Shown here one piece after another: positions 585 to 35,189 of a stretch of 61,892 nucleotides of DNA. Under the pieces are notes generated by a model. That model was not told where the DNA came from and did no database searches. It saw only the letters and a program-made list of their open reading frames with translations. The stretch comes from Brachyspira pilosicoli (lineage in GTDB: Bacteria > Spirochaetota > Brachyspiria > Brachyspirales > Brachyspiraceae). The stretch is from NCBI RefSeq assembly GCF_008016535.1, contig NZ_SAXY01000007.1, positions 1 through 61,892 of the forward strand, in the 5' to 3' direction. How positions within the stretch are numbered: the first letter of the stretch is position 1; every line of letters begins with the position of its first letter. The position numbers and the translations under genes were made by a program.

Positions 585-798
585 AAATCCTAAATTTATA
601 ATTTTTTAAACAAAAAATAAAGTTGTATAATACTTATAGATAGTATATTTAAAAATGAAGAAATATCAATAAATATATGTTTATAAAGTAAAAAACACAA
701 AGAAAAGTTTATAATTACATAATAAACATAACATTTTACAAAAAATTATAAAAAAATATCTAAAGTAAGCAAAAAAAATTAATAATTAATTGATAGCA

Positions 799-806
799 GC
801 CGATAA
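799..806 (+). promoter_or_regulatory. Candidate sigma-28 type -10 box upstream of flaB
   Basis: GCCGATAA matches the -10 element of flagellar sigma-28 (FliA/WhiG) promoters and lies about 50 bases before the flaB start. The matching -35 (TAAA about 15 bases upstream) is poor here: only AT-rich sequence such as TTAATAAT is seen. The call rests on the -10 match plus the gene it precedes. Confidence 0.5.
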
Positions 807-857
807 TATATACTAGTTCAAGGACGGACTAATAAACAATTTTCACGGAGGAACCAT

Positions 858-1730: not shown

Positions 1731-1752
1731 TAATAGCCTAATAGCTTAAAAT

Positions 1753-1790
1753 AAAAAGGGTGATGCTATTTTTTAGCTTCGCCCTTTTTT
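1753..1790 (+). terminator. Rho-independent terminator of flaB
   Basis: An 11-bp stem (GGGTGATGCTA pairing with TAGCTTCGCCC, with one wobble and one mismatch) around a T-rich loop is followed by TTTTTT. It starts about 20 bases after the flaB stop. Confidence 0.85.
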
Positions 1791-1815
1791 AATGCAAAAT
1801 AAATAATAAAATATA

Positions 1816-1853
1816 TATAAAAAATGGCTTGCAAGTATATATACTCACAAGCC
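1816..1853 (-). terminator. Terminator of the flavocytochrome-like reductase gene
   Basis: GGCTTG and CAAGCC arms enclose an inner palindrome (AGTATATATACT). Read on the minus strand the hairpin is followed by ATTTTTTATA. It sits just past the stop of the 1876-3603 gene and faces the flaB terminator. Confidence 0.7.
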
Positions 1854-1875
1854 TTAAAACATTTTCTATAAAATA

Positions 1876-3603: not shown

Positions 3604-3633
3604 TAAAAAACTCCTTAATATTTAGATAAATTA

Positions 3634-3662
3634 ATTATATAAAAAAAGATTAGCATTGTCAA
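3634..3662 (-). promoter_or_regulatory. Sigma-70 promoter of the fumarate reductase-like gene
   Basis: On the minus strand TTGACA (3657-3662) and TATAAT (3634-3639) are separated by 17 bases. Both hexamers are consensus, and the -10 lies about 30 bases before the start codon. Confidence 0.85.
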
Positions 3663-3782
3663 TTTGTTTTTATATTTTTATTACAATTCTATTATTTTAA
3701 AGTATAAAAAATAACAAAATTATTATAATTATCAAAATTTATAAACTTTTATAAACTTAAACTATATTACTAAATTATTATA

Positions 3783-4154
3783 TTAGCTATTTATAACCAT
3801 CTTGAATTGATTTGATATCTCCTTCTTTATAGCCTGTAAACTCTGTGATATAGATGATTGGCTAACATTAAAAATCTTAGCTAACTCTCTTTGGCTCTTA
3901 CCTTCAGAAAATAATTTTAATAACTGTTTTTGCTTTGGTGAAAGTATCGCCACAACCAAATTTGAAAGCCTCTCATATTCTACATAACTTAAACTATTTG
4001 TATAAAGTATATTCTCTAAGTCTTTATCTGTTAAAACCACTTCCCTGCTATAATCCCTATTTTTCTTAAACTCCCTCTTTCCATATCTAATCTTCTTTAA
4101 CATCTCATCGCATAATTTTACACAAGTATTATATTTAGGACATAAATTACACAT
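3783..4154 (-). CDS. Small DNA-binding protein with Cys cluster and sigma-region-4-like HTH
   Basis: This 123-residue protein has four cysteines at its N-terminus (Cys2, Cys5, Cys11, Cys15), a possible metal or Fe-S site. A helix-turn-helix spans residues about 72-109 (LSPKQKQLL then SQRELAKIFNVSQSSIS). The latter resembles region 4 of sigma-70 factors and LuxR/phage late regulators. It is the second gene of a two-gene operon; the upstream partner ends two bases before it. Similar small regulators occur in prophages and gene-transfer agents, but no phage structural gene is near. A transcription regulator is likely; the targets are unknown, and it may act on the 27-bp palindrome in its own promoter. 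Confidence 0.65.
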   Translation of the reverse strand: MCNLCPKYNTCVKLCDEMLKKIRYGKREFKKNRDYSREVVLTDKDLENILYTNSLSYVEYERLSNLVVAILSPKQKQLLKLFSEGKSQRELAKIFNVSQSSISQSLQAIKKEISNQFKMVINS

Positions 4155-4156
4155 TG

Positions 4157-4390
4157 TTAATACTCCTTTAATACATATAAAATATCTTCTAAAAGCATAG
4201 CTGAATATTCAATAGATGTATCAAAATTAAGTTTCTTTACAGCATTATCAACATCTACCCTCATTATAACCCAATCCTCCCAATTAACCTTTTTATTGTA
4301 AAAATAATCATCATCGTCAATATTATCTAGTATTATTTTTACAAGTTTTTTGTTATAATTTTTAAACTTTCTTGTTGGCGGTTTATTCAT
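4157..4390 (-). CDS. Hypothetical 77-residue protein, first gene of regulator operon
   Basis: I do not recognise this protein. It is basic at the N-terminus (MNKPPTRKFKNYNKK), acidic in the middle (DNIDDDDY) and has no signal peptide or membrane segment. A GGGAG ribosome site precedes the ATG. It is followed after two bases by the Cys-cluster HTH gene and preceded by a promoter and a perfect 27-bp palindrome, which supports it being a real, regulated gene. Confidence 0.6.
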   Translation of the reverse strand: MNKPPTRKFKNYNKKLVKIILDNIDDDDYFYNKKVNWEDWVIMRVDVDNAVKKLNFDTSIEYSAMLLEDILYVLKEY

Positions 4391-4411
4391 AATAGCTCTC
4401 CCAAACTAATG

Positions 4412-4438
4412 TATAGTAATATACTGTATATTACTATA
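4412..4438. promoter_or_regulatory. 27-bp perfect palindrome, candidate operator
   Basis: Arms TATAGTAATATAC (4412-4424) and GTATATTACTATA (4426-4438) are exact reverse complements around one base. The palindrome lies between the -10 box at 4444-4449 and the start codon at 4390, where a bound repressor would block transcription of the two-gene operon. Confidence 0.6.
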
Positions 4439-4443
4439 GTAGT

Positions 4444-4472
4444 TTTATATATCATATATCGTTTTTTTTCAA
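4444..4472 (-). promoter_or_regulatory. Sigma-70 promoter of the two-gene regulator operon
   Basis: On the minus strand TTGAAA (4467-4472) and TATAAA (4444-4449) are 17 bases apart, directly upstream of the 27-bp palindrome. Confidence 0.65.
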
Positions 4473-4582
4473 TACCCATTTTGATGTTTTTTAACATTTT
4501 TTATGTTTTTTATGCTTTTGATATTTTTTTATTTTTCGATTAGAATGGTTTATAAATCATAATAAATAGTAAGAGTAGTATA

Positions 4583-4768
4583 ATGATAAAAGAAGATAGT
4601 AAATATATATGTAAATGTAAAGAATTATCTATTGAAGAGATAGAAACATTAAAAAAAGAATATGGATTAAAGACATTAAGAGATATAGTAAAGAAGACAA
4701 AAGCAGGCACAATTTGCGGTGGATGTAGAAATCGTTTAAAGGAGCTATTTAAAGATAATTTAAGATAA
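4583..4768 (+). CDS. BFD-like [2Fe-2S]-binding small protein
   Basis: This 61-residue protein has cysteines at 10, 12, 45 and 48 (CKC and CGGC). That spacing is the Cys-X-Cys-X(about 32)-Cys-X2-Cys pattern of the bacterioferritin-associated ferredoxin (BFD) [2Fe-2S] domain. The domain fills the whole protein. BFD proteins donate electrons for iron release from bacterioferritin, and the same fold occurs in nitrite reductases and other enzymes, so the partner is open. No bacterioferritin gene is in this window. It converges on dapF with only five bases between the stops. Confidence 0.8.
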   Translation: MIKEDSKYICKCKELSIEEIETLKKEYGLKTLRDIVKKTKAGTICGGCRNRLKELFKDNLR

Positions 4769-4773
4769 AAGCA

Positions 4774-5613
4774 TTATAATTCTACATAGCCTCTGTATGC
4801 GTATCTTGCTTCGCCTTTCATAAAAACTGTATTATCTTTATAAGTTAATATCAACCCCCCCCCCAAAAGGTGATTGAGTATAATATTGTCAGTTCTTTTA
4901 CTTATAAATCCAGCCACACAAACGGCAGAAGCACCTGTACCGCATGCCAAAGTCTCACCGCTTCCCCTCTCCCAAGTTCTCTGTATAACTTCTCCTCTAC
5001 TTATAACCTGCACAAACTCTACATTTGTTCTATTTGGAAATATAGGATTATTTTCAATAAAACTTCCAATATCATCAATTCTCATATTTTTTACATCATC
5101 TACAAATATCACACAATGAGGATTGCCCATAGATACACAAGTAAAATAATAAGTTTTTCCATTAAAATTAATAGGCTCATCTATTATTGGAGTTTTATCT
5201 ATAGTAGTTGGTATTTTTAAGCCTTCAAGTATAGGAGAGTCCATATTTATCTCAACGCTATCAACTTCATCATTCTTTATAAATAAATTAGCCTCAAGAA
5301 CCCCTCTTAAAGTTTCTATTTTCATTGGGTTATTTTTTGATATATCATTATCATAAGCATATTTTGCAACACATCTTATGCCATTTCCGCACATTTCAGA
5401 CTCAGAGCCATCATAATTAAACATTCTCATAGTTACATCAGCTATTTTACTAGGCATTATTAAAATAATACCATCAGCACCTATAGAATAATGTCTATGA
5501 CTCAAAATTGGAGAATATTTTTTGGCATCTTCAACTGTAAAACTCTCTTTAAAACAATCTATATATATATAATCATTACCTATGCCATGCATTTTAGTAA
5601 AATTCAAAGTCAT
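4774..5613 (-). CDS. dapF: Diaminopimelate epimerase
   Basis: DapF interconverts LL- and meso-diaminopimelate for lysine and peptidoglycan synthesis. The protein begins MTLNFTKMHGIGNDY. Both active-site cysteines are present: CGNGIRC (about residue 74) and ACGTGAS (about residue 225). Length (279 aa) is typical. I place the start at 5613, since a GGAG site sits 9 bases before that ATG; a TTG further upstream at 5628 is possible. The codons for HLLGGGL near the C-terminus are written as a run of ten G, so slippage there would frameshift the last 30 or so residues. The presence of dapF supports DAP-type peptidoglycan and fits with murE at 58.2 kb. Confidence 0.95.
   Translation of the reverse strand: MTLNFTKMHGIGNDYIYIDCFKESFTVEDAKKYSPILSHRHYSIGADGIILIMPSKIADVTMRMFNYDGSESEMCGNGIRCVAKYAYDNDISKNNPMKIETLRGVLEANLFIKNDEVDSVEINMDSPILEGLKIPTTIDKTPIIDEPINFNGKTYYFTCVSMGNPHCVIFVDDVKNMRIDDIGSFIENNPIFPNRTNVEFVQVISRGEVIQRTWERGSGETLACGTGASAVCVAGFISKRTDNIILNHLLGGGLILTYKDNTVFMKGEARYAYRGYVEL
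4855..4864. repeat. C10/G10 homopolymer inside dapF
   Basis: Ten consecutive C on the plus strand (G on the coding strand) lie in the 3' part of dapF and encode the three-glycine run. Long G/C runs are very rare in this AT-rich window, and such runs are prone to polymerase slippage. Confidence 0.9.
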
Positions 5614-18434: not shown

Positions 18435-19655
18435 TTATTTTTTAATTTTTATAGGAAGCAGTCTTTCTAATTCTGTTTTTGATACTTGAGTGTTGCCTGT
18501 TATTAAGCTTAACACTTTTATATTAGTTTCATCATTTAAAGCATTAAAAATATATTCTAAGCTATAATTTTTATTATAATTCTTTAATGGATATATTATA
18601 TTCACATGATTTTCGCATACAAACACACTCTCTTTTACTATTGCTGACTTTATATTAATATTTTTATGAGAGCCTGTGATTCTATTAACTGCTATAACCT
18701 CTTCTCTTATTATTAAATCTTCTGAAATATTTTTTATATATTGAAGTTTTCTTTTATTTGGTATAACAATTTTTCCATTTACTATATTAGAAGAATATAT
18801 TAAAGGAATCGCATTATTTTTACTTTCTGTAAGATTTTCTTTATATTTATTCCAAGCAATACTTCCTGTTTTTACAGAGTAGCCTATTTCTTTTAAGCTA
18901 ATTGTGTCTTTATATGCCTTGTTTAAAAATAATTTATCTTCTGTAAATATTGTAATATCATTTTTTGAAAATATATATTTTTTATTTTTTTTAGTATTAG
19001 TTCTTTTGAGTATTAAAAGCATCACTTTTTGATTTGCCATATAAAAGTTATCAGAGCCTTCCACTATATGCATATATTCTATACTGCTATTATTAATTAT
19101 ATATTCTCTTAATTTAGCAAAGAATGCTCCATTATTCATTGAAGGCGGCACAACATAGGCTAAATATCCACCATCATTAAGAAGCTCTAAACCTATTTTT
19201 ATAAACAAAGAAAATATATTAACTCTTCCGCTTATAATCTCTTTAAATCTTAATTTTTGCTCTTTATCTAATTTAAACTCAAAATATGGAGGATTTCCTA
19301 TTATATAATCATATTTAATAGATTTATCAGTGTTAATTTTTAAAGTATCTAAACATTTAACATCTGCATTATTTATTATTTTTTTTGATATAGCTACTAA
19401 ACTCTCATCAATATCAAATCCATGTATCTCAGCATTATTAAAATATTTTCTACAAGATAAAAGAAACTCTCCGCTTCCGCATGCTGGATCTAATATTCTT
19501 ACATTATCTTTTTTTTCTGAAATATTTATTAATTCTTTTAAAAGTAAATCTCTTATACTTTTTGGCGTAAAGTACTGTCCTAGTTTTTTTCTTTTTTCTA
19601 TATTTGTATTTTTAAAATAATCTATACTTTCTTTTGTGTACTCTTTTATCATCAT
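18435..19655 (-). CDS. Type II DNA adenine-N6 methyltransferase
   Basis: A 406-residue methyltransferase with LGQYFTPKSIRDLL (the N-terminal motif shared by gamma-class N6-adenine enzymes), SAM motif I ILDPACGSGEF (55-65) and catalytic motif IV IIGNPPYFEF (118-127). The second half (from about 230) is likely the target-recognition domain. It ends at the tenA stop (convergent genes, no gap) and begins 7 bases after the endonuclease gene. Together they form a restriction-modification pair: this enzyme protects host DNA at the site cut by its neighbour. The recognition sequence cannot be read from the protein. Confidence 0.88.
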   Translation of the reverse strand: MMIKEYTKESIDYFKNTNIEKRKKLGQYFTPKSIRDLLLKELINISEKKDNVRILDPACGSGEFLLSCRKYFNNAEIHGFDIDESLVAISKKIINNADVKCLDTLKINTDKSIKYDYIIGNPPYFEFKLDKEQKLRFKEIISGRVNIFSLFIKIGLELLNDGGYLAYVVPPSMNNGAFFAKLREYIINNSSIEYMHIVEGSDNFYMANQKVMLLILKRTNTKKNKKYIFSKNDITIFTEDKLFLNKAYKDTISLKEIGYSVKTGSIAWNKYKENLTESKNNAIPLIYSSNIVNGKIVIPNKRKLQYIKNISEDLIIREEVIAVNRITGSHKNINIKSAIVKESVFVCENHVNIIYPLKNYNKNYSLEYIFNALNDETNIKVLSLITGNTQVSKTELERLLPIKIKK

Positions 19656-20460: not shown

Positions 20461-20500
20461 AATAAGTCTATAGCTAAATTGCTCTAGCTATAGACTTATT
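20461..20500 (-). terminator. 16-bp hairpin after the giant gene
   Basis: AATAAGTCTATAGCTA (20461-20476) and its exact reverse complement (20485-20500) enclose an 8-base loop, 36 bases past the stop of the 14.6-kb gene. The T-run after it is weak on the minus strand, so it may act as a terminator or as a 3' mRNA stabiliser. Confidence 0.65.
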
Positions 20501-20535: not shown

Positions 20536-23500
20536 TTAATATCCTCTCGCTGACTCATCTTTCCATTTTTTGATAACTCTCTCAACCTCATCTCTGTCAT
20601 AAGAAGTATTTTTTACTATCTCATCATATTTCCAACCCTGCTTATACATATTAATAATAATGTTTTCTTTCTTATCATTAATCTTTGTACTAGTAGTTTT
20701 ATTTCTCTTAGTTAAACTTTTACCCGCATCATTAACATACTTCTCAGCATTATCTAATAGAGTTTCCAAATAACGAACAAAATATTCAGCTCTCTCAAGA
20801 TTTTTCACTATATTGTTATCATAATCCTCATACTGCTTCTTCATATATTTTAGGTTTTCTCTCTGATTCTGTATCTCTTCTATGATAACATTAAGCTCTT
20901 CTAACTTGCTAAAGAACTTCTGAACCTTTTCATCATTCTTATCTATCTTAGCTATATCTCTTTCTAAAGCAAACATCTTATCAGAGAACTCTCTTCTAGT
21001 ATCTTCTATATCAAGCATAGCAGATTTAATAGTATCTATTTTTTGTAATATATCATCAGATTCAGTGTCTGCAGTATTTACTTTTTCTAATATAGTATTA
21101 GCCTGCTCTTCTTTATCATTGATAATAGCAAGTTTATTTTCTATCTGAGAAGCTATATCTATAACAACTTTTATACCCTCTTGAGTATTTTCTATCATAG
21201 AGTTGCTTTCTGCTATTTGCATAAACTTGTTTTGTACCTCTTCAGACATCTCTACAAGCATATTTACTTTTTCTTGAGTATCTTTCAAACTTTCTTTCTC
21301 TTTTCTGATACTATCCGCATAGTCTAATATAGTATCATGCATATTCTTAAGCTCTTCAAACTCAGACATAGTTTTATTCATATCATAAACTGTATTTTTA
21401 GTATCATTTACTAAAACGTCTAATTTAGCTACATCATCTTTAATGAAATTAGCCATCTCTTCCGCTTTATCAAACATTTTTACAGTATCCATATACTTAT
21501 CTATGTCTTTGCCTATTTTTTCTATCTGTATTTTTAATGTTTCATACTCACTGTTTATATCATAAGTTTTATCATCAAGCATTTTATCTATAGAGTTAAC
21601 AACATCATTTAATTTTTCTGTTAAATTATCTGTTCTTGAATCTAAATCTTTGAGTATAACATTAGTTTTATCTTCATACTTCAAATTAATGTCTTCTAAT
21701 CTAGCATCTATCCCACTAGCATATTTAGCTATATCCTCTTCTAAAGCAGATATAATATTTTTCATGCCTGAAAGTCTCTCATCATAAACATCTAAATTTG
21801 AAGATTGAACCTTTAACATCTCCTCTTTAGCATTTTGTACATACTCTTTAGCATCATTCATAAGCAATGATAAAGTCTGTTCCATATTAGAATTAAGTCT
21901 GTCTATATATTTATCATACTTATCATTAGCAGATTCTTCTATATTAGTTACACTCTCTTCAATAATACTATTAGCCTCTTTAATCTTTTCGTTAACAGCA
22001 TCAGATATAGATTCTCTTAACTCCAACAATGAAATAGAAATATCTTCATACTGAGTTCTTAATTCATCAAATTGAGTATTCTTATCTTCTAAAAGCTCAT
22101 TTATTCTATTAGTAACATTCTCAATTATAGAATCAAATTCACTAACTTTGCTGTCTAAAGAAGTTTTAGCATTAGAAGAAAGCTCTTCAAGTCTAAACTT
22201 AAACTTATTGCCTTCTTCTTCTATATCTTTAGAATACAACTCAATTTTATTTTGTAACTCTAATGCCTTCTCTTCAACTATAGCTTGAAGTTTCTCTATA
22301 GAAGGAGAAAACTCATTTTGTAAGTTATTCATCTTCTCTTCTACATCTTTTAATAAGTCTTTATTATCTTCTAAAGATTTATTAAACTCTTCTTTAGCAT
22401 TAATAGCCTTCTCTAAATCACCTAAAAGATTATCAACTGAAGAATGCATACTTTCTTTTGTTGACTCTAACTCACTATAAAGAGAATTAATCTTATCCTG
22501 CCATTCTTTATAAGTGTTTTCAAATAAAGCTACAATATCTTCTTTGCTTCTCTCTTGTCTGTCACTATAATACTTCTCTGTTTCAAGATACATATCTTTT
22601 AATTTTGTAACTTCTTCCTCATGCATAGTTTTTACTTCTTCTATGCTTCTTTCACTCTCATAATTAACAGCACTTCTTAATTCGCTTAAAAGCTCATCTT
22701 GATAAGAAGACATATTATCTCTTAACTCTTTAGCAGTATCATCTAATTTAGAGTTCATCAATTTGAAAGTTTCATCAATCTTATCACTAATAGTTAACTC
22801 TACCTCATCTATAGCCTGTTTAACATCATTGAATCTCTCAAACTTCTTCATCTCATTATTAACAAACTCATTTACAATTTTCATTATATGAGGAGTTAAA
22901 TCATTAGTCTCTTTCAATATACTCTCATTAAATGAAGCAAGTAAATTATTAACAGCCTCTTTAGATTTGTCTAAATGCTCATTATTTTCATTAATAATTT
23001 TCTCTTCCATAGAAGATATATATTCTTCAACTTCTTTTATCTTTCTATTAAACTCTAATTCTTTCTCAGCTATTCTTTGAGAAGCATTATCTGAAGCCTC
23101 AATAACCGCAGATGTTAAACTATCAATCTTATTATTTATATTAACATCACTAGTTTTTACCATCTCAATTAGAGCTTCTCTTTCTCTGCGAACATTTTCT
23201 ATGTCCTGAGATATTAATTTTTGAGATTGACTTAATAATCTTATCTCATTTTCCTGCTCTTTCAAATTAACTTTAATAGTATCAACTATAGCATCTATTT
23301 CATTTTGAGCATTATCTATTTTCTCCATTATAGATTTTACTTTATCATTTTCTATATCATTTATATGCTTCTTAACTTTTTCAACATTGTCAGTAATATC
23401 TAATAATATATGAGAAGCACTCTCTTTAATATTATCAACTTCAACCTCTATAGCATCTCTATAAAACTCTTTAATTTTTTCTGGCTCTGAATAAGCATCT

Positions 23501-26500
23501 TCAAAATGTTCTATTCTTGCCTCTATACGTTTTCTGAAAGCCTCATTAGATTCTTCAAATACCTTGATAATATCATCTCTCAACTCTTCTGTCATATATT
23601 TGAAATCAGCTTCTATAGAATCACCCTTAAAGTTCTCAAGAACATCTAATATCTCTTTTTTCTGTTCATCTATTAGAGAAATAGCATCATCTTTACTTAT
23701 TAAATCTAGAGAAACTTTTTTGTTTAGCTCATCTATATTATCAATAATGCTTATTTTCTCATTGTTCAAAACCTTCATAGCTTCATCTTGTTCTCTTATA
23801 AGCTCTAATATAGATTTTCTAAAATTAATAAACTCATTAATTAATCTATTTCTATCGCTTTCCATACTATTTATAGCATCATCAGAATATAAAGTGCCTG
23901 TCTCATACTTTAATCTAATATCCTCTACTTCTAAAGCAATTCTCTCTCTCTCTTGTAATAAACTATTAGCCAACTCTTCTATGAAAGAAAGTTTATTAGC
24001 AAACTCATCTCTAAAGTTAGAAATATCATTTGCTATATTATCCCTATAGCTATTAATATTGCCAACTATTTCTTCTTGAAGCATAGCAAAGTTATTTCTC
24101 ATATCAGCCTTTTGCTCTTCAGCAATATCTTGGAAATGATTCTCTTCTTGAAGTTTAGATTCTATATCATCTCTAAATGAAGCAAACTCTTCTCTCAAAG
24201 ACATCTTCTCTTCAACAAATATATTGCTTATATCCTCTAAAGTTGGAATATCTTTAAGTATTGATTCTTTTAAACCAGATAATTTATTTTCAAAATTAAC
24301 TTGCTCTTTTGATAAAATCTCAGCTATAACATCTGTAGGAGAATAGTTTTCTTCTAAGTCTTTTCTAAACTCATCTATAGTTTTATTAATATTAGCTATC
24401 TCTTCATCAAATAATTTTGAAACATAATCTTTATCTGCAATATTAGAAGATAATTTTTCTTTTGTATCATCTATAGAATCATCAATACTGCCTTTATACT
24501 CTGACATAAGCTCTTCAAACTTATCTAAAGAAACAGAATTATCTTTTAAACTTTCAAACTCTTTTCTTATATCATTTAAAGCATAATATAAATTAGCTTT
24601 TTCTTTATCAATTATATCATTAAAGTTCTTTAAATATTCGTTTCTAAAAGCTTCTATCTTATCAGAATTAGACATATATTCTACTCTAATAGCAGATTTG
24701 AAATTATCCAATTCTTCTATTAATTTATTTTTCTCTTCTTCAAACATATCAGCAAAGTTTTTATTGTTAGAAGTTAATATATCATTTTTAAAGTCTTCAA
24801 ACTCATTAACTATATTGTTCTTCTCTGAAACAAATAAATCGCTAATATCTTCCATGCTAGGTATTGATTCAATAACCTCTGTTTTAAACTTAGAGAACTC
24901 TTCATTCATCTGAGCATCTTTTCTCTCTATAGTTTCATAGACATCTTTCTTAAGCTCATATATTGAATCTAATAACTCTTTCTTATCTTTAGCAAGTTCA
25001 TTAGAAAGCTCTAAAGAAGAAATTAAATTATGTTCTATATGTCCAGTATCATTTGATAAGCTATCTTTCAAATTATTTATCTTAGTATCAATAGCTTCTT
25101 CATAATCATTTAATACTTTATCTAATCTGTTTACATATTGAGTGATATCATTATTTAAGTAATGCTGACTATCCTCTACATCTTTTATTCTATCTTCAAA
25201 TGCTTCCATTTTATTTTCAAATGTAGAAAGTTTATCATTAATCAATGATTTTGATTTATCATTATCTTCTTCAATAGAAACTATTTTTTTCTCTATATCA
25301 GATTTTAAATTATTTATAGTATTTGATATACTTTCTATTTTTTCATTAGAAGTAAGATTTTCTTTGTCTAGGTTTTCAATTATAGAGTTTATATTTTCAT
25401 TAAAGCTCTTTTCAACATTATCTATTTTTAAATTAAACTCCTCAAATGAATCTCTAAACTTAATCTCTAAATCAGATTTAAAACTATCTGCCTTCTCAGT
25501 TATAAAATCAGAATATAATTCTCTTATTTTATCTCCGTCACCCCAAGAATCTTCAAAGAACTCTATACGCTTCTCTAATCTGCTTGTAAAGTTCAAGTTA
25601 TTATCTTCAATATCTGATAAACTATTCACTATAGAAGATATTTTAGATTTATATTCTTCAAGAGTATTAAATATATCATTATTATTAGATTTAAATAACT
25701 CGAAACTCTCCTCTATTTTTTTCAACTCTTCAGATAATTCATCTTTACTGATTTTATTATTCTCATAAGAAGAGATTTTATTTACTAATTCTAATTCTTT
25801 GCTATTTATAAACTCATTAATCTTACCCTCTGAACTTTCAATAGCCTTAGATATAGCATTATTGATGTTTTCATTTAAATCATTTAATGAATCTGTTATA
25901 ATATTATCTAAGCTCTCTTTGCTCTTCTCTATACTATCCATCTGCTCTTTTAATTTTGAATCTATCTTAGAAGAATAATCACTCAAATATACATCAATAT
26001 ATCCTCTATTAGCATCCATCTTAGATTTTTCTATTTCTAATTTCAAACTATTACAAAGTTCTTCTAAAGATTTAGAATTATTTTCATAAGCAGTATTCAA
26101 TAACTTAGCATAGCTTTCATAGTTAGATATAATACTTTTACCTATATCATTGATATCTTTCATTATAGAAGATGACTCCTCTAATCTATAGCTTTCTATA
26201 TTTTTTAACTCATCTTCATATTTATCAATAGCATCAGTTATCATATTATTAAATCTATTAATATCAGAAGTTAGCTTGTTTTCCAAATTATTAACTTTAT
26301 TATTAATAGAGCTTATTCTAGATTCTAATGATTCATTTAACTCATTTTCTCTATCTGCTATTTTTTCTCTAACAGCTTTTACTATATCATCTACAATAGA
26401 ATCCTTTTTATCATTTGTGCTGTCTATAAATGATTCTATATTATTTTTTGCTTCTTTTAATTGTTCAAGCAAATTATATAAACTATCATCTTTCCAAATA

Positions 26501-29500
26501 GATATGCCGTTTTCAACCTCATCAATTTGCTCTTTTAAACTTGACATTATCTCATTTTTCAAGTTGTTTACTTCTGGAGTAATAGCATCTTCATAAAGTT
26601 TTAATATTTTACTTGAATCTGATAAATTATCTTCAAAATAAGCAACTCTATTATTGATATTTTCTCTAAACTCATCATTATTAGAATTTAATTCATCATA
26701 CAAAGAATAAAGCTTCTCCTTCTCTTCGTCAAAATATTCTTTAGAAACACCATTATCCTCTAATGTATCTATTTTGTATTCTAATGAATATTTAAACTCA
26801 GATACCTCTTCAAATAATCTATCAATATCAACTCTTAAATTACCATCAACACCTTCTAAATTATTTTTTAACAAATAAACTTCATTTTCTAACTCATCAA
26901 GCTTATCAAAATCTTCTTTCAATGAATTGAATGTATCTTGTAATTTTATTCTCTCCTGTTCTAATTCATCTAATACATCATTATTTTTCAAAGCTTCTAA
27001 TTCAAATTTAAAGTTATCTATGCTATCTAATATACTATTTTTTTCATCATCCATAGTATTTTTTATATTAGAAATCATACTCTCAGAATCTGATACTCTA
27101 TCAATTATCTCTTTAGTAAACATGTCAAAGGATTCTTCAAATTGATTTTTTAATTCCTCAAAAATACTTGGAATATATGATTTTTTAGCTTCTAATATAG
27201 AATCTTTGAAATTAGCAAACTCTTCTCTTAATGCTACAACATGCTCATCACTTAATACAGAACTTTCTATATTTGAGAATTTATCTTCATAAGATTTACC
27301 TATAGACTCATACTCTGTTTTAAGTTCTGATATTTTTGAATCTAAATATTCATACAATAATTTTTCTTTTTCATCTACTTTAGATATTTGTTCAGCATAA
27401 TCATTTAATTTGCTCTCTACAATAGATATTCTTTCATTTTGATTAAGAGTATTCTCATTTATTTTACTTATAGTATCATTTAAATTAGAATTAAGCTCAT
27501 CAAAACTATTTTTTATTATACTTTCTAATTCTTCTTTTGCTTTATTTAATACACTAAACTTATCTTCTATTTTTGAATCTATATTATTTAAATATTCTTG
27601 TAAATATTCATCAATATAATTCTTATCTGCATTCTCCTCTCTAATACGTTCTATCTCTTCTCTTAAACTATTTGAATACTCTTCTAAATATTCGTTTACA
27701 TAATTTTTGTCAGATTCTCTATTATCTTCTCTTAAAGTATTCAATTCATCTTTTAAATTATTTGAATACTCTTCTAAATATTCATTAATGTAATTTTTAT
27801 CTGCTTCTGTATTTTCTTCTCTAAGAGAATATAGATCATCTTTCAAATTATTAGAGTACTCTTCTAATAAAGATACTGAATTATTATAAACTTCTTCTAA
27901 GTCTTTTACATAATTCTCATAGCTATTTTTAACCTCTTCACTAATTTTGTTTAGAGTATCCTCACTTAACTCTGCACTATTAACTTGTAGAGTATTTATT
28001 TCTGCTTTATAGTTATTAACAGCTTCATTTAAACTATTATAGAAGTTCTCTAAATCTTTGCTAACATCATTAGTTATCTTATCATCAAATACTGACAACT
28101 TACTTTCTATATCTTTAACTCTGTCTTCTAATTTGCTGTATATAGCTTCTTCTTTTGATTCTATCTCTTTCATCATATAAGATAACAATTCTTCTTTTTT
28201 AGCGTCTGTATCTTTTATATAGTTTTCTATAGTAGACTTAGACTCTTCTAATTTATCATATATAGATTTCTCTTTTAATTCTAATTCTTTCATTATAGAA
28301 GACAATATTTCTTCTTTTTTACTATCTGTATCTTTTATATAGTTTTCTATACTATTTTTTGCTTGTTCCAACTCAGACAATAATCTATTAATATCATCTT
28401 CTTTGTAATTATCCACACTTAATGATAAATTATCTACCTTAGATTTTAGCTCTTCTAAATAATTCTCAAACTCAAGCTCTCTTTCATATCTTATATTGTC
28501 TAGCTCTTCTCTTAAATCTGCTGAATATAAGCTTCTTATTCTTGTGCTGTCTGACCAAGTATCTTCAAAATATTCTACTCTTCTCTCTAATCTCTCTCTA
28601 AACTCTTTATTGTCTTTCTCTAAATTATCAAATAAATTATTTAGTTTTGACAACTCTTCATTAAACAAATCTTTTACACTGCTGTCATTATTCAATGAAC
28701 TAATGTTATTTTCTATTCCTATTAATTTATCTTCTAAATCTTTTCTGTAATTTGATATACTATTTTCTAACTCTAATGATTTGTTAATAGCTTTATCCAC
28801 ATCTTCTTTGAAACTGCTTAATCTATTATCAAAATCATTTACATTACCATTCACACTCTCAAAGTTATTATTTAACACCTCAAAGTTAGATGATATTGTA
28901 TCTAAATTAGCAGATATATTTTCATTATTTAATGATAATTCTTCAACTCTGCTATTTAATTTATCCATTTCTAAATGAACATTATTATATTCTTTTTTAA
29001 GTTCATCTATTGATGAGTTTATTGAAGATTTTAATGAACTATCTAATTCTGATACATTATCTCTCAATTCATTTAAACTGCCTTCTAATTCATCAAACTT
29101 AGACAACTCTTCTCTTATACCATTAAAAGAATCTTCTAATGATAACTTATAATCTAATAACTCATTTAATCTGTCATCATTATTAATATTATCTATATCA
29201 GAGCGAAGAGCGTCTAACTCCTCTAATAAAAGATTCTTATCACTTGATAGCATATCTTTTACATAGTTTATGTCACTGTCTGTGTCATTTAGTCTAGTTA
29301 ATAAATCCCTGCTAAACTCTTCAAAGCCTCTCTCTAACTTCTCTCTCTCCTCTTCAAATAAACTATATAAATCACTGCCATCATTATTAACCAAATCATT
29401 ATTATCATTAACTGATGAAATATCTTCTTTCAATGATAAATAATCATCTCTAAGACTCTCTAGTTTAGATATAAGCTCTTCTTTCTCTTGACTTTGTAAA

Positions 29501-32500
29501 TCTATTATCTCATCTCTATCTAAAATGCTCTTCTTAACTAAATCTAAAGCTTCCTCAAAATCTACACTCAACTCTTTATATTGACTGCGTACTGAAGATA
29601 TATCATTATCTAAACTTGCTTTTATATTAGTTATCTCTTCTTCTAATTTAGAGTTAATACTATTTATACGTGAATCTAATTCTTCAACATAATCTTTATT
29701 AAACAACTTGCCAAAATCTTCTTCTAACCTGCTTAACTTCTCTACATTTGCAAGAAGCTTATCATTAATATCATTCTCTAATGATGTTATTTTTTCTTCT
29801 GCTAAACTATTTACTTTAGATAATGATTCTTCTATACGAGTATTAAGATTTTCAAAAGAAGTATTTAATATATTGTCTAATTCTTTTTTGCTCTCTTCTA
29901 ATACATTTAACTTCTCTTCTAATCTGCTGTCTAAATTATTTGAATATTCTTCTAAATATTCATTAATATAATTTTTCTCATCATTTAAAAGCTGTAACTG
30001 AGATTCTTCTTTAATATTTTCAATCTCTTTTTTTACATTATCAAGATGCTCATCTAAAGAAGAAATAGCAGTATTATAAGTATTATCAAGCATTATAGAA
30101 TATTCTTCATAATCTGCCCTTATACTATCTGATAAAGATTTTAAATCAGATATAATGGCCTCTTTTTCATTGCTTCTGTAATGTTCTATATTTTTTATCT
30201 CTTCACTATATTTATTAGAAGCATCATTTATCATTTTATAAATATTTTCTAAACTGCTTCCTATATCATTGTTAATTTTTTTGTCTATATTAGATAATTT
30301 ATTATCAACATCTAATATCTTTTCATCTATACGAGAATAAATTTCTCCCTCTTTAGCCTCTAATTTTTTTAGTATATCAGAAAGCAACTCTTCTTTTTTG
30401 CTGTCTGTGTCTTTTATATAAGATTCAATACTATTTTTAGCATCATTTAATTGAGATAAAAGCTCATTAATATTTTCATTTTTCCAATCTTCTATACCGC
30501 TAGAAATCTCATCTATCTGTGTTTTTAACTCATTAATATAAACATCGAATTTCTCATCAGAATATGCTCTAAGATTGTTAATTTCTTCTTTTAGCTCATT
30601 AGAATACATACTTCTAAGTCTAGTAGGATCAGACCAAGAATCTTCAAAATATTCAATGCGTTTCTCTATTCTATTTTTAAACTCATCATTTCCAGCTGAT
30701 AATTCTTTTAATATATTTTCCATTCTGTTTTCTATATTATCAGTCTTATCAATAGAACTAGAAATACTGCCCTTTACATCATACAATTCTTTATTAAGAG
30801 TCTCTAAATCTTCTAATAAAGAACTAGAATCATTAGATATTTTCTCTTCTAAATTGTCTTTAAAATCTATTAATTTTTTAGATAAAGAACTAACATCATC
30901 TTTTATAGTAGAGTCTATTCCTTCCATTCTATCTTTCAAAGAGTTAAAATCTTTTTCTAAGTTTTTAACTTTTTCTATATCAGATTTCAAATCATCTAAA
31001 GAACTCTCTAATTGTAACTTATCCTCAACTAATGCCTCAACTCTATTATCAGATTTAACATCTTCTAAATCTTTTTCTATCAATTCTATTTTTTCTATTA
31101 AACGATTTCTCTCTTCAGATAAAACATCTTTAATATAATTTAAGTCACTTTCATTATCAGATATTCTCATAAGAAGATTTTTTGAAAACTCATCAAATAT
31201 ATTTTCTATTCTTTCTCTCTCTTCTTCTAATAAAGCAGGTATTTCTACTTCATTGCTCTTTAATATTTGAGATTTAAAAATTTCAAACTCTTCTTTCATA
31301 TCATCTAATTGAACATTCAAAGCTTCTCTTTCAGACTCTTGTATATCATTTAATTCTTCTCTAGACATAATAGAAGATTTTATTTCATCTATAGTTCTAT
31401 CGAATTCAGTATTTTTAAATGATACATCAGATTTTAACTCTTCTAATTCATTATAAATATCATCTTTAAGAGTATCTACTAAATTAGAAATATCATTAAC
31501 ACGTTCAAGTTTTTCGTTATATTGATTAAACATAGATAACATATTTTCATTATTAGAAATCATATTATCTATCTCTTCTTTTAATTTATTATCAAGACTC
31601 TCTCTATAACCATTAAAACCATCTCTCAATAATTCTAATGCCTTAGAAAGTTCTAATGTTTGATTACTTACAGCAGAATCAGTATATTCTTTAGCCTTAT
31701 CTAATAATTGAGTAACGCCATTATAAAGAGTATTGAAAGAATCATTTAAAGTAGTGCTTATATTATTAACCTTTTCATCTATCTCTAAAGATTTATCCTT
31801 CAAATAATTATCTATATAATTAGCCTCATTTTCCAAATGTACTTTTTCAGAATCTTCTCTGTGTTTTTCTATATCATTTTTTAATTCACTAACATAATCA
31901 TCAAGAGAAGATTTTTTATTATTGTATATCTCTTCTAATATCTTAGTGTATTTTTTATAATCTTTTCTTATGCTAGCACCGATATTTTCAATATCAGCAA
32001 TTATATTTTCATTTTCTTCTAATCTTAAGCTTTCTATCTCTTTTATTTCATCATTATATTTTTCTATAGCAGCCTCTATTATTTCATTAAGCTCCTCTAA
32101 TTTACCTAAAGACTCCTCCTCTATTTTATTAAACACTTCATCACATTTAGCATTCAAAAACTCTTTCTTATCTTCAATATAAGATGAAACATCTTGCATC
32201 TCAGCATTAACTGCTTTTTTCAAGCTATCTATATTGTCTTTAAGTTCATTAACATAAGAATCAGCTGTTTCCAATCTATCATCTATAGTGTTTTTTAATG
32301 CATCTATATAATAGTTAGAATCTTTCTCTTTAGAATCTATATTAGATTTTAATTCATCAACATATTTGTTAATATTCTCTTTCTTTATTTCAATATCTTC
32401 TATTATGCTATTTACAGAAGAAACAACCTCATTAGATTTTGCATCAACATTCTCTTTTACACTATTAACATAATCTGTTATATCTTTAGTTTTATTTTCT

Positions 32501-35157
32501 ATGCTGTCTTCCATATTTTTAGAAGCAAATGCAAGCTCTTCCAACTTAGAAGATAAAGTATCCATTTTTATTCTATATTCATCGCTAATAATATCAGAAT
32601 GTTCTTTTAATTGTTCGTATTCATTTCTCAAATTATTATAATAATTTTCTAAAGAACCTTTATATTCCTTAGTCATAGAATCTAAATCTGATTTACTTTC
32701 ACTAAACAAATCATCTATTTTATCATTTAATGATTTATACTTATCTTCAATATTTGATAACAAATTACTTTCTTTTTCATTTGCAACATCATATACTCTA
32801 TTTATAGTATTTTCAAAATCTTCTCTTCCATTTTCAACTCTATTTAAAATATCTTCTATATCATCTCTAACTTTATTTATACCTTCTCTTTTTTCGTTTA
32901 GGAGAGTATCAAATGAATTAGTTGCCTCAAGTAATTCAGTATTTAGCATATTAACTATTTTGTTTTTATTATCTTCAGCAAACTCTTTATTTTCATTTAA
33001 TGAATAATCTATTTTCTCTTTAAACTCTTTTAAAGAATCTTCCATATTTGAAATTATATCATTATGTCTTTTGTCGCTTTCTTCTACCTGATGAGCAAGA
33101 CTGCTTATGCTATCACTTATAGATTTTATACTAGTCTCTTCATAATTATCTATAACTTCTTTTAATTGACTTTTCAAACTATCTAAATAAGAGTTGCCGT
33201 ATTCATATAGATTATTTCTAATCTCTTCCATGTTAGATTCTGCATTTTTTATACCAGTGTCCAATTTTTCATTAGCACTATCAACTAAATCTTTTATCTC
33301 TGAAGAAGTTTTATCTAAAAGCTCTATACGTTTTTCTATATTTTCTTTTAAATTAGTTTCTGTATTTTCTAATAAGTCTTGTATCTTACTACTATCATTA
33401 TCATATTGTTCTTTTAATACAGATAATTTATCAGTGACATCATTCAAATCTGTATATGTATTTTTTATATAATTATCTACACCCTGTTCAAAATCAGCTT
33501 TTATATTATTGAAATTATCCTCAAGCTCTTGTATCTTTTTATTAGCCTGTTCTTCTAAATCTTTATATAAATATTCTTTTTCTAAACTTAAAGCATCTAA
33601 TATCTCTTCTTGTTTATTGTTTAATATAGAAGATATTTCAGAAGTTTGATAATGTATTTCATTCATTTTATCTTTTAAAAGATTAGTTTCTGTTTCAACA
33701 TCTGCTCTAAGTTCATTAATTTCAGCTATAAGAGAACTTCTAGCATTGTCTATAGAATACTCCATATCATCTTGAGTTCTAGCTAATATATCATTTTTAA
33801 GTTTGTCTATATCATTAACTATCTCATCAAATTTACTCTCTGCTCTAAGCATAGTTTCTTCGCTCATACCATCTATAGATACTATTAAATCAGAAAGCTC
33901 TTTAGTTTTATTTCTATAAAGAGTGATAATACCGTCATTTTCATTTTCAAGTATATCTCTTATATTATTAGAAAATGCTTCCACTTCTGTTATCAAACGA
34001 TTGCTAATATCATTTTTAAGAGTAGTAAACTCTGTTTCTAATTGAACAGTTTTATCTTCATAATCTTTAGTTATTAAATCTGCTTTATCTTTAATATCAT
34101 CTATAGTCTTCTCTAAAGAATGAGCCTTATCTTCAACAGACACTAAGAACTCTTCTTTTTCATTTCCTATTTTCTCTAATTCTTCTTTTAATGTGTTGTA
34201 TAAGAACTCTTTAGTCTTCTCCATTTCACCCTTAAACTCTTCAACGCTAGACTCTGTTATAGAATTAAGTCTATCTTGTATAGTATCTCTCAAGTTTATA
34301 AGCTCAACTTCAAGTCCTTCTTTGGACTGGCTCAAACTAGCATAACGTTCTTCTATATCTTTTGATTTAGCATTAATCTCTTCAGCAAATAGAGAATATT
34401 TATTTACAAGTTCATCTCTTCCCTTTTCAAATAATTCTGCCAACTGTTCTATGTTGTTGCGTGCAGTTCTTTCAGCAAGCTGAGTAAGCTGATTTGTAAA
34501 GAGTTCTTCTTTTTTTGCAACATGAAGCTTAAACTCTTCTGTTAATGCTGATATCTTATCTTTTTCCTGCTCAGCCATATCTGTATAATGAGCATCACGA
34601 GCGAGTAAGTTTGTAGTAAGAGCATCAAATCTCTTATATAATTCAGACTCAAAATCATTTAATTTAGCATTATAAGAAGCAATTAAATTATCCTGTATAG
34701 AAGAAACATTTTTTTCTAATTCTATCATCTTTGTTTTAACATCAGATATTCTTTTATATGTTTTTTCTATAGTGTTGCGTTCTTTTAATACAGTATCAAC
34801 TTTGTTAAGTATATCTAAATAAGCCTCTTCAAGCGAGTCTACTTGTTCCTGATATTGTGATACTGCCGCCTTATAATCTTTATATGACTCTATTTTATTA
34901 TTAAGTTTAGCTAAATCTTCTTCCATAGACTTACTTATAAAACCAGCTTTTTTTACAGCAATCTCCAAATCTATGGCATTATCCCTAACTTCTGATATTT
35001 TCTCTTCTATAATACCTTCTAATGCTGCTTTTTCTTCAGCAAAGATATCATCAAAATTTGAGTTGTTATTGTTTTTTTTTCTATCGATAATTTTAGAAAT
35101 ACCGACAACTATAATAGGAATAATTAGCATTAACGCGAAATTCAATATAGGGAACAT
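20536..35157 (-). CDS. Giant membrane-anchored coiled-coil protein (4873 aa)
   Basis: One uninterrupted frame of 14.6 kb. The start is supported by GGAG 6 bases before the ATG. Residues 4-22 (ILNFALMLIIPIIVVGISK) are a single membrane segment followed by positive residues (DRKKN), so the body should face the cytoplasm. Residues about 40-4800 are almost wholly charged heptad sequence (Glu, Lys, Asp, Ser, Asn, Leu, Ile) with very few Pro, Trp or Cys. Five related blocks with a RIEYFED-W-SD pattern occur near residues 1505, 2199, 2842, 3202 and 3887. The C-terminal 50 residues form a separate small domain (INMYKQGWKYDEIVKNTSYD) like a helix-turn-helix. There is no ATPase Walker motif, so it is not an SMC/Rad50 protein. 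I recall that very long spirochaete coiled-coil proteins are annotated as a SpiroCoCo family, which this may join (not checked). A structural, scaffold or tether role is inferred; a continuous helix would be about 0.7 micrometre long. Confidence 0.85.
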   Translation of the reverse strand: MFPILNFALMLIIPIIVVGISKIIDRKKNNNNSNFDDIFAEEKAALEGIIEEKISEVRDNAIDLEIAVKKAGFISKSMEEDLAKLNNKIESYKDYKAAVSQYQEQVDSLEEAYLDILNKVDTVLKERNTIEKTYKRISDVKTKMIELEKNVSSIQDNLIASYNAKLNDFESELYKRFDALTTNLLARDAHYTDMAEQEKDKISALTEEFKLHVAKKEELFTNQLTQLAERTARNNIEQLAELFEKGRDELVNKYSLFAEEINAKSKDIEERYASLSQSKEGLEVELINLRDTIQDRLNSITESSVEEFKGEMEKTKEFLYNTLKEELEKIGNEKEEFLVSVEDKAHSLEKTIDDIKDKADLITKDYEDKTVQLETEFTTLKNDISNRLITEVEAFSNNIRDILENENDGIITLYRNKTKELSDLIVSIDGMSEETMLRAESKFDEIVNDIDKLKNDILARTQDDMEYSIDNARSSLIAEINELRADVETETNLLKDKMNEIHYQTSEISSILNNKQEEILDALSLEKEYLYKDLEEQANKKIQELEDNFNNIKADFEQGVDNYIKNTYTDLNDVTDKLSVLKEQYDNDSSKIQDLLENTETNLKENIEKRIELLDKTSSEIKDLVDSANEKLDTGIKNAESNMEEIRNNLYEYGNSYLDSLKSQLKEVIDNYEETSIKSISDSISSLAHQVEESDKRHNDIISNMEDSLKEFKEKIDYSLNENKEFAEDNKNKIVNMLNTELLEATNSFDTLLNEKREGINKVRDDIEDILNRVENGREDFENTINRVYDVANEKESNLLSNIEDKYKSLNDKIDDLFSESKSDLDSMTKEYKGSLENYYNNLRNEYEQLKEHSDIISDEYRIKMDTLSSKLEELAFASKNMEDSIENKTKDITDYVNSVKENVDAKSNEVVSSVNSIIEDIEIKKENINKYVDELKSNIDSKEKDSNYYIDALKNTIDDRLETADSYVNELKDNIDSLKKAVNAEMQDVSSYIEDKKEFLNAKCDEVFNKIEEESLGKLEELNEIIEAAIEKYNDEIKEIESLRLEENENIIADIENIGASIRKDYKKYTKILEEIYNNKKSSLDDYVSELKNDIEKHREDSEKVHLENEANYIDNYLKDKSLEIDEKVNNISTTLNDSFNTLYNGVTQLLDKAKEYTDSAVSNQTLELSKALELLRDGFNGYRESLDNKLKEEIDNMISNNENMLSMFNQYNEKLERVNDISNLVDTLKDDIYNELEELKSDVSFKNTEFDRTIDEIKSSIMSREELNDIQESEREALNVQLDDMKEEFEIFKSQILKSNEVEIPALLEEERERIENIFDEFSKNLLMRISDNESDLNYIKDVLSEERNRLIEKIELIEKDLEDVKSDNRVEALVEDKLQLESSLDDLKSDIEKVKNLEKDFNSLKDRMEGIDSTIKDDVSSLSKKLIDFKDNLEEKISNDSSSLLEDLETLNKELYDVKGSISSSIDKTDNIENRMENILKELSAGNDEFKNRIEKRIEYFEDSWSDPTRLRSMYSNELKEEINNLRAYSDEKFDVYINELKTQIDEISSGIEDWKNENINELLSQLNDAKNSIESYIKDTDSKKEELLSDILKKLEAKEGEIYSRIDEKILDVDNKLSNIDKKINNDIGSSLENIYKMINDASNKYSEEIKNIEHYRSNEKEAIISDLKSLSDSIRADYEEYSIMLDNTYNTAISSLDEHLDNVKKEIENIKEESQLQLLNDEKNYINEYLEEYSNNLDSRLEEKLNVLEESKKELDNILNTSFENLNTRIEESLSKVNSLAEEKITSLENDINDKLLANVEKLSRLEEDFGKLFNKDYVEELDSRINSINSKLEEEITNIKASLDNDISSVRSQYKELSVDFEEALDLVKKSILDRDEIIDLQSQEKEELISKLESLRDDYLSLKEDISSVNDNNDLVNNDGSDLYSLFEEEREKLERGFEEFSRDLLTRLNDTDSDINYVKDMLSSDKNLLLEELDALRSDIDNINNDDRLNELLDYKLSLEDSFNGIREELSKFDELEGSLNELRDNVSELDSSLKSSINSSIDELKKEYNNVHLEMDKLNSRVEELSLNNENISANLDTISSNFEVLNNNFESVNGNVNDFDNRLSSFKEDVDKAINKSLELENSISNYRKDLEDKLIGIENNISSLNNDSSVKDLFNEELSKLNNLFDNLEKDNKEFRERLERRVEYFEDTWSDSTRIRSLYSADLREELDNIRYERELEFENYLEELKSKVDNLSLSVDNYKEDDINRLLSELEQAKNSIENYIKDTDSKKEEILSSIMKELELKEKSIYDKLEESKSTIENYIKDTDAKKEELLSYMMKEIESKEEAIYSKLEDRVKDIESKLSVFDDKITNDVSKDLENFYNSLNEAVNNYKAEINTLQVNSAELSEDTLNKISEEVKNSYENYVKDLEEVYNNSVSLLEEYSNNLKDDLYSLREENTEADKNYINEYLEEYSNNLKDELNTLREDNRESDKNYVNEYLEEYSNSLREEIERIREENADKNYIDEYLQEYLNNIDSKIEDKFSVLNKAKEELESIIKNSFDELNSNLNDTISKINENTLNQNERISIVESKLNDYAEQISKVDEKEKLLYEYLDSKISELKTEYESIGKSYEDKFSNIESSVLSDEHVVALREEFANFKDSILEAKKSYIPSIFEELKNQFEESFDMFTKEIIDRVSDSESMISNIKNTMDDEKNSILDSIDNFKFELEALKNNDVLDELEQERIKLQDTFNSLKEDFDKLDELENEVYLLKNNLEGVDGNLRVDIDRLFEEVSEFKYSLEYKIDTLEDNGVSKEYFDEEKEKLYSLYDELNSNNDEFRENINNRVAYFEDNLSDSSKILKLYEDAITPEVNNLKNEIMSSLKEQIDEVENGISIWKDDSLYNLLEQLKEAKNNIESFIDSTNDKKDSIVDDIVKAVREKIADRENELNESLESRISSINNKVNNLENKLTSDINRFNNMITDAIDKYEDELKNIESYRLEESSSIMKDINDIGKSIISNYESYAKLLNTAYENNSKSLEELCNSLKLEIEKSKMDANRGYIDVYLSDYSSKIDSKLKEQMDSIEKSKESLDNIITDSLNDLNENINNAISKAIESSEGKINEFINSKELELVNKISSYENNKISKDELSEELKKIEESFELFKSNNNDIFNTLEEYKSKISSIVNSLSDIEDNNLNFTSRLEKRIEFFEDSWGDGDKIRELYSDFITEKADSFKSDLEIKFRDSFEEFNLKIDNVEKSFNENINSIIENLDKENLTSNEKIESISNTINNLKSDIEKKIVSIEEDNDKSKSLINDKLSTFENKMEAFEDRIKDVEDSQHYLNNDITQYVNRLDKVLNDYEEAIDTKINNLKDSLSNDTGHIEHNLISSLELSNELAKDKKELLDSIYELKKDVYETIERKDAQMNEEFSKFKTEVIESIPSMEDISDLFVSEKNNIVNEFEDFKNDILTSNNKNFADMFEEEKNKLIEELDNFKSAIRVEYMSNSDKIEAFRNEYLKNFNDIIDKEKANLYYALNDIRKEFESLKDNSVSLDKFEELMSEYKGSIDDSIDDTKEKLSSNIADKDYVSKLFDEEIANINKTIDEFRKDLEENYSPTDVIAEILSKEQVNFENKLSGLKESILKDIPTLEDISNIFVEEKMSLREEFASFRDDIESKLQEENHFQDIAEEQKADMRNNFAMLQEEIVGNINSYRDNIANDISNFRDEFANKLSFIEELANSLLQERERIALEVEDIRLKYETGTLYSDDAINSMESDRNRLINEFINFRKSILELIREQDEAMKVLNNEKISIIDNIDELNKKVSLDLISKDDAISLIDEQKKEILDVLENFKGDSIEADFKYMTEELRDDIIKVFEESNEAFRKRIEARIEHFEDAYSEPEKIKEFYRDAIEVEVDNIKESASHILLDITDNVEKVKKHINDIENDKVKSIMEKIDNAQNEIDAIVDTIKVNLKEQENEIRLLSQSQKLISQDIENVRREREALIEMVKTSDVNINNKIDSLTSAVIEASDNASQRIAEKELEFNRKIKEVEEYISSMEEKIINENNEHLDKSKEAVNNLLASFNESILKETNDLTPHIMKIVNEFVNNEMKKFERFNDVKQAIDEVELTISDKIDETFKLMNSKLDDTAKELRDNMSSYQDELLSELRSAVNYESERSIEEVKTMHEEEVTKLKDMYLETEKYYSDRQERSKEDIVALFENTYKEWQDKINSLYSELESTKESMHSSVDNLLGDLEKAINAKEEFNKSLEDNKDLLKDVEEKMNNLQNEFSPSIEKLQAIVEEKALELQNKIELYSKDIEEEGNKFKFRLEELSSNAKTSLDSKVSEFDSIIENVTNRINELLEDKNTQFDELRTQYEDISISLLELRESISDAVNEKIKEANSIIEESVTNIEESANDKYDKYIDRLNSNMEQTLSLLMNDAKEYVQNAKEEMLKVQSSNLDVYDERLSGMKNIISALEEDIAKYASGIDARLEDINLKYEDKTNVILKDLDSRTDNLTEKLNDVVNSIDKMLDDKTYDINSEYETLKIQIEKIGKDIDKYMDTVKMFDKAEEMANFIKDDVAKLDVLVNDTKNTVYDMNKTMSEFEELKNMHDTILDYADSIRKEKESLKDTQEKVNMLVEMSEEVQNKFMQIAESNSMIENTQEGIKVVIDIASQIENKLAIINDKEEQANTILEKVNTADTESDDILQKIDTIKSAMLDIEDTRREFSDKMFALERDIAKIDKNDEKVQKFFSKLEELNVIIEEIQNQRENLKYMKKQYEDYDNNIVKNLERAEYFVRYLETLLDNAEKYVNDAGKSLTKRNKTTSTKINDKKENIIINMYKQGWKYDEIVKNTSYDRDEVERVIKKWKDESARGY
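27580..27880 (-). repeat. Short tandem repeat within the giant coiled-coil gene
   Basis: Three consecutive units of about 33-36 codons are alike, each containing NEYLEEYSN followed by a charged LREE/LRED segment. The next region (28140-28350) holds another two-fold repeat built on ENYIKDTD and KKEE-L. Both indicate recent local duplication on top of the larger internal repeats. Confidence 0.7.
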
Positions 35158-35189
35158 AATTATCTCCAGTAGACAAAAAATATAGTATA

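Follow-up and report, generated by a model that had tools for sequence, protein, structure and literature searches.

The window analysed here, a 61,892-nucleotide stretch of a Brachyspira pilosicoli contig (NZ_SAXY01000007.1), contains one gene of 4873 codons whose features are collected in Table 1; its neighbours in the window are ABC transporter and methylase genes. The gene is a single frame that starts with ATG within a surrounding open frame of 4884 codons. The chance of so long an open run, estimated from base composition, is about 10^-236, and when the window was shuffled 50 times no open frame exceeded 163 codons; G+C at the three codon positions is 0.385, 0.214 and 0.176. The original prediction, made from the DNA letters and reading frames, had described a real open frame with a good ribosome-binding site (here GGAG, 6 nt before the ATG), and a charged protein with one N-terminal membrane segment and no nucleotide-binding motif. 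All of this is borne out: charged residues make up 38% of the protein, Kyte-Doolittle hydropathy peaks at 2.58 over residues 2-20 and reaches at best 1.04 elsewhere, and a search of the protein for a Walker A motif found none. A perfect 16-bp inverted repeat (AATAAGTCTATAGCTA / TAGCTATAGACTTATT, 8-base loop, window positions 20461-20500), seen by eye just past the stop codon, is likely the gene's A+T-rich terminator. A solitary N6-adenine DNA methylase-like gene (N6_Mtase/Eco57I) lies nearby at 18435-19655.

Table 1. Features of the SpiroCoCo gene and protein in the window.
Feature	Position	Strand	Basis
GGAG ribosome-binding site, 6 nt upstream of ATG	35164..35167	-	sequence
SpiroCoCo gene (P0001), 4873 aa	20536..35157	-	frame, family scores, selection
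N-terminal membrane segment, residues about 2-21, then Lys/Arg	35095..35154	-	Kyte-Doolittle; topology inferred
SpiroCoCo_N domain, residues 9-227, most conserved part	34477..35133	-	profile score, dN/dS 0.008
Helical rod (predicted), residues about 230-4800, hydrophobic period 3.63	20758..34470	-	periodicity, AF2
Module motif 1, RIEKRIEYFEDSWSDPTRLRSMY, about residues 1495-1523	30589..30675	-	repeat search
Module motif 2, RLERRVEYFEDTWSDSTRIRSLY	28510..28596	-	repeat search
Module motif 3, degenerate, NRVAYFEDNLSDSSKILKLY	26578..26664	-	repeat search
Module motif 4, KRIEFFEDSWGDGDKIRELY	25498..25584	-	repeat search
Module motif 5, ARIEHFEDAYSEPEKIKEFY	23446..23532	-	repeat search
SpiroCoCo_C domain, residues 4534-4862	20572..21558	-	215-223 bits, cut-off 125
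C-terminal three-helix HTH (predicted), DUF6115/DUF2802 type, residues about 4828-4870	20548..20676	-	profiles, AF2, alignment

The name SpiroCoCo, which had been suggested for such proteins, proved to be the right one. The two NCBIfam domain models of this family both exceed their curated cut-offs, SpiroCoCo_N (NF047514) with 137.3 bits against 75 and SpiroCoCo_C (NF047515) with 215.1 bits against 125, and the window protein is a full family member with both end domains and the helical rod in a single chain. Other members likewise have the N- and C-domains in one chain with a coiled rod between them; those of Treponema and Sediminispirochaeta are about 1.1 kaa long and those of Borreliaceae mostly about 2.2 kaa, whereas the window member is 4.9 kaa long and modular. 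Membership of the SMC/Rad50/ZorA group was rejected, since the best score was 93.9 bits against a cut-off of 567, Walker A is absent and the matches are coiled-coil background. SpiroCoCo is already known as a database model; a literature search with the family name and with BB0512, TP0408 and LA_3659 found no paper on it, and within the reach of our searches no earlier description turned up of the giant modular form, the period of 3.63, the SwrB/FipA-type tip or the joint loss with flagella, all set out below.

The lysine and arginine residues that follow the membrane segment predict an N-out/C-in orientation, which would place the rod in the cytoplasm. Hydrophobic residues of the rod recur with a period of 3.63 and their autocorrelation is as high at lag 7 as at lag 11; periods of 3.62-3.65 were obtained for eleven orthologues, drawn from Brachyspira, Borrelia, Treponema and Sediminispirochaeta. 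The almost continuous heptads of the original prediction are contradicted by these values, and we rejected a heptad coiled coil, for which 3.5 would be expected and for which the MukB coil, our heptad control, gave 3.47 (T4 fibritin was an unclean control owing to its loops). Judged by its periodicity, the rod is instead a mixed heptad/hendecad (7/11) pattern that should form near-straight, hardly supercoiled helices. Its composition favours helix: of the 4873 residues of the protein, 12 are proline and 58 glycine. An unbroken helix at 0.1485 nm per residue would measure 0.72 micrometre, so that the originally estimated 0.7 micrometre stands as an upper bound, while the continuity it assumed is brought into doubt by those prolines and glycines and by predicted helix breaks. 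An AlphaFold2 (AF2) model of one module is helical with such breaks, and at a pLDDT of 67 and a pTM of 0.32 it is compatible with a continuous rod and with hairpins alike.

Purifying selection acts on the whole chain. The orthologue of a near relative (G122) is 94.4% identical to the window protein over 4844 residues, and dN/dS between the two is 0.11 for the full comparison and falls to 0.008 in residues 1-227, with 0.08-0.22 in the rod and 0.064 in the C-domain; thus all parts are under selection, the N-domain extremely so, in agreement with the claim that strong selection keeps the frame open. Homologues split into several genes, or a frame broken in most strains, would have spoken against the single giant gene originally described, but in 12 Brachyspira genomes the N- and C-domains lie within one unbroken frame. 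Elsewhere in the genus, splits coincide with contig ends or with an assembly gap. The exception is one genome (G106), in which the reading frame switches a single time after about 810 codons; this change may be real or a sequencing error.

Repeat searches revealed that the central part of SpiroCoCo in Brachyspira consists of units about 600-700 residues long, each marked by a motif, R-L-E-K-R-I-x-Y-F-E-D-T-W-S-D-S-x-R-I-R-S-L-Y, that is almost invariant across copies. The window protein has five copies of the motif (two degenerate), G043 has seven and G029 two; such repeats were not found in SpiroCoCo of Treponema, Borrelia or Sediminispirochaeta. Across Brachyspira the protein ranges from 3.9 to 9.1 kaa, which makes the window's 4.9 kaa mid-range for the genus; this, the modules and the C-terminal helix-turn-helix (HTH) domain described below had been overlooked originally. 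The main difference between the window protein and that of G122 is one in-frame insertion of 728 residues, that is, one whole module. In a sister genus, the SpiroCoCo gene of G033 (G033:C4, L150) contains an 871-residue tandem copy that is 95% identical, which reflects a module gained very recently unless it stems from the assembly.

A cytoskeletal ruler was one of the roles first proposed for the protein. We compared SpiroCoCo length with flagellar number in three named species, B. suanatina (G053; 7872 codons, 14-18 flagella per cell), B. intermedia (G078; 7877 codons, 24-28 flagella) and B. murdochii (G090; 7673 codons, 22-26 flagella). The near-equal lengths of the first two accompany quite different flagellar numbers, so length does not track flagellar number in these species and a simple ruler is unsupported. 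We consider it an even bet that the length of the rod in Brachyspira measures nothing, that the number of modules drifts by tandem duplication, and that what matters is the conserved ends and some minimal length. The wide range within one genus, the single-module difference between near relatives, the tandem copy in G033, the sufficiency of about 1.1 kaa in Treponema and the mismatch with flagellar number are all consistent with such drift; against it, the rod is itself under purifying selection and the motif hardly varies from module to module. As it bears on length alone, this explanation could hold together with the flagellar role proposed below.

In the AlphaFold2 prediction for the last 330 residues (mean pLDDT 78), two long helices are joined by a disordered linker to a three-helix HTH. 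The nearest families by sequence are DUF6115, which matches 21 of 24 SpiroCoCo C-termini (best 8.7e-8), and DUF2802, which matches 17 of the 24 (best 3.2e-7); the best DUF2802 score listed is 30.2 bits against a cut-off of 33.5, and the window protein scores 23.9 bits with DUF6115 against a cut-off of 27. In whole-genome searches with DUF6115, SpiroCoCo C-termini reach 45.7 bits and many orthologues exceed that cut-off. The same searches also match another, short protein, about 140-300 aa long, with a transmembrane segment (TM) and an HTH. Its tip aligns with that of SpiroCoCo in hhalign at 97% (E 5e-11), and the Borrelia short protein matches SpiroCoCo_C at 8e-9; between the N-domains of the two proteins no homology was detected. 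These comparisons indicate that the C-terminal HTH of SpiroCoCo is homologous to the DUF6115/DUF2802 domains of SwrB and FipA and to the tip of the short protein.

SwrB activates flagellar export (PMC4526659), and FipA recruits FlhF via its DUF2802 domain, in which alanine at the invariant G110 or L129 abolishes binding (PMC11620751). The short gene adjoins FlhF, FlhG, sigma-28 or FapA genes in Treponema and Borrelia, and it matches an unnamed 'TM + HTH' gene in the spirochaete flagellar superoperon (PMC11607428). For Borrelia, only size and gene order served to identify the FlhF and FapA frames. The Brachyspira short paralogue (L132:9127-9918 on G000:C54) has a long variable linker and adjoins a decarboxylase gene near a contig end, with no flagellar gene among the neighbours tested. 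The invariant glycine of FipA is kept in 54 of 55 SpiroCoCo proteins, as is the glutamate at +16, with the same spacing as in FipA. The leucine at +19 is kept in nearly all members outside Brachyspiraceae; within that family all members but one carry R, K, T or A instead, with R, K or T in Brachyspira, and the window protein keeps the G and E and has R in place of L. At that position the Brachyspira short paralogue has a hydrophobic residue. Replacement of the leucine suggests that the docking partner or binding mode may have changed in Brachyspira. The genome of the window encodes an FlhF-like GTPase, which scores 139 bits, below the cut-off of 174.

SpiroCoCo genes themselves lie outside flagellar operons, and no flagellar family was found among the gene neighbours tested. 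In Treponema, Borrelia and Sediminispirochaeta, and not in Brachyspira, a HAD-type hydrolase (phosphatase) gene lies directly upstream (L133:7097-7777, L134:7118-7804, L136:13166-13867 and L139:13071-13736).

The distribution of the family is tightly tied to flagella. SpiroCoCo_C (E<1e-10) was found in 327 of 392 spirochaete genomes and FliG_C in 335; every one of the 327 has FliG, and all 57 FliG-negative genomes lack SpiroCoCo_C, a cross-count obtained partly by subtraction (19 and 37 negative genomes). The eight FliG-positive genomes without SpiroCoCo_C are fragmented assemblies (90-360 contigs) and all have FlhA, which agreed with the FliG pattern in the 21 genomes checked. On an RpoB tree, flagellar markers and SpiroCoCo were lost together at least twice independently, in a clade of families f42, f53 and f54, which includes a genome (G218) that is probably Sphaerochaeta coccoides, and in G372, which lies among flagellate relatives. 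In four genomes of one lineage (G124, G175, G203 and G255; family f38, genus g68) FliG (E about 1e-17 to 1e-19) and SpiroCoCo_C (1e-16 to 1e-21) are strongly diverged together and FlhA is strong; this lineage possibly has an altered flagellum. Almost all of the flagellated spirochaetes examined thus have SpiroCoCo, among them the lineages of the syphilis and Lyme agents.

Since the protein occurs only in spirochaetes with flagella and has a tip like those of flagellar placement and activation proteins, it probably takes part in building or holding the internal flagella. More specifically, we put at roughly 45% the probability that SpiroCoCo is a giant scaffold of FipA/SwrB type that lies along the inner membrane and is attached to the flagellar apparatus, a model for which we infer the topology, the docking partner and the scaffold role. 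Its N-terminal segment would anchor it in the inner membrane, and the near-straight rod would extend through the cytoplasm, probably following the membrane. At the end of a flexible linker, the HTH would dock on a factor for flagellar assembly or placement (FlhF, or FliF/FliG), and the long scaffold might in this way position, activate or couple basal bodies close to the ends of the cell. Tandem gain of modules has lengthened the rod in Brachyspira. Brachyspira flagella insert subterminally on a line at both ends of the cell (PMC4603578), so a rod of several hundred nanometres is of plausible scale. A scaffold near the periplasmic flagella was among the original suggestions, and it gains real support from the co-occurrence and the C-terminal homology; contact with any flagellar protein is the presumptive part of it. 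The location of the gene outside flagellar operons, the substituted leucine in Brachyspira, the window protein's DUF6115 score below the cut-off and the lack of N-domain similarity to the short paralogue count against it.

SpiroCoCo might instead be a membrane-anchored cytoskeletal filament that keeps the long helical cell body, its co-loss with flagella reflecting loss of shape. Flagella-less spirochaete lineages also lack helical shape, as is established for Sphaerochaeta, so co-loss fits this explanation equally well and co-occurrence cannot separate motility from shape. In favour of such a filament are the great length and near-straight course of the helical rod, the occurrence of the protein in almost every shaped spirochaete but not in the Sphaerochaeta clade, and the separation of its gene from flagellar genes. 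Its HTH, however, is specifically of the SwrB/FipA type and common to a flagellar-operon protein, and a generic filament needs none; the putative kinship of the tip favours a flagellar role, and we regard the filament as doubtful.

An envelope-to-nucleoid tether, membrane-anchored with its HTH on DNA, is unlikely. In favour of this earlier suggestion, an HTH is predicted, with three helices, whose nearest solved folds in Foldseek are those of DNA-binding proteins (resolvase and LuxR type; none significant, all E above 0.03). A PDB sequence search with the HTH gave no informative match. The tether is weakened by the near-neutral charge of the domain (-1 to +2), by a third helix that is acidic and hydrophobic (GEVELILEL) in most members, by best family matches to the flagellar DUF2802/DUF6115, and by the want of any reason for a tether to vanish along with flagella. 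We also judge it improbable that SpiroCoCo, as a giant, stretched protein of FipA/SwrB type, forms a straight rod that follows the inner membrane and governs how far the periplasmic flagellar motors reach or how they are spaced, each module of about 600-700 residues adding about 90-100 nm and module number tuning the layout. Modular growth to 9.1 kaa makes Brachyspira a natural length series for testing the giant rod as such a gauge.

The link to the SwrB/FipA domain, together with the strict co-occurrence, gives SpiroCoCo a first concrete and testable role as a flagellar scaffold, and it bears on how spirochaetes line up several motors at each end with their filaments in the periplasm. Compared with known systems, the short spirochaete TM+HTH protein (165-290 aa) shares the homologous C-terminal HTH but lacks the rod. 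SwrB of Bacillus subtilis (DUF6115) has, like SpiroCoCo, a single N-terminal membrane segment, a cytoplasmic coil and a C-terminal HTH-like domain; SwrB is short, whereas SpiroCoCo, likened to it by sequence, is far longer and spirochaete-specific. FipA of Vibrio and Pseudomonas (DUF2802) also combines an N-terminal TM, a coil and a C-terminal domain, and SpiroCoCo keeps two or three of its three invariant residues at identical spacing; FipA, however, has 163 aa and its gene adjoins flhF/flhG, whereas the SpiroCoCo gene lies elsewhere and the leucine that is critical for FlhF binding is not conserved in Brachyspira.
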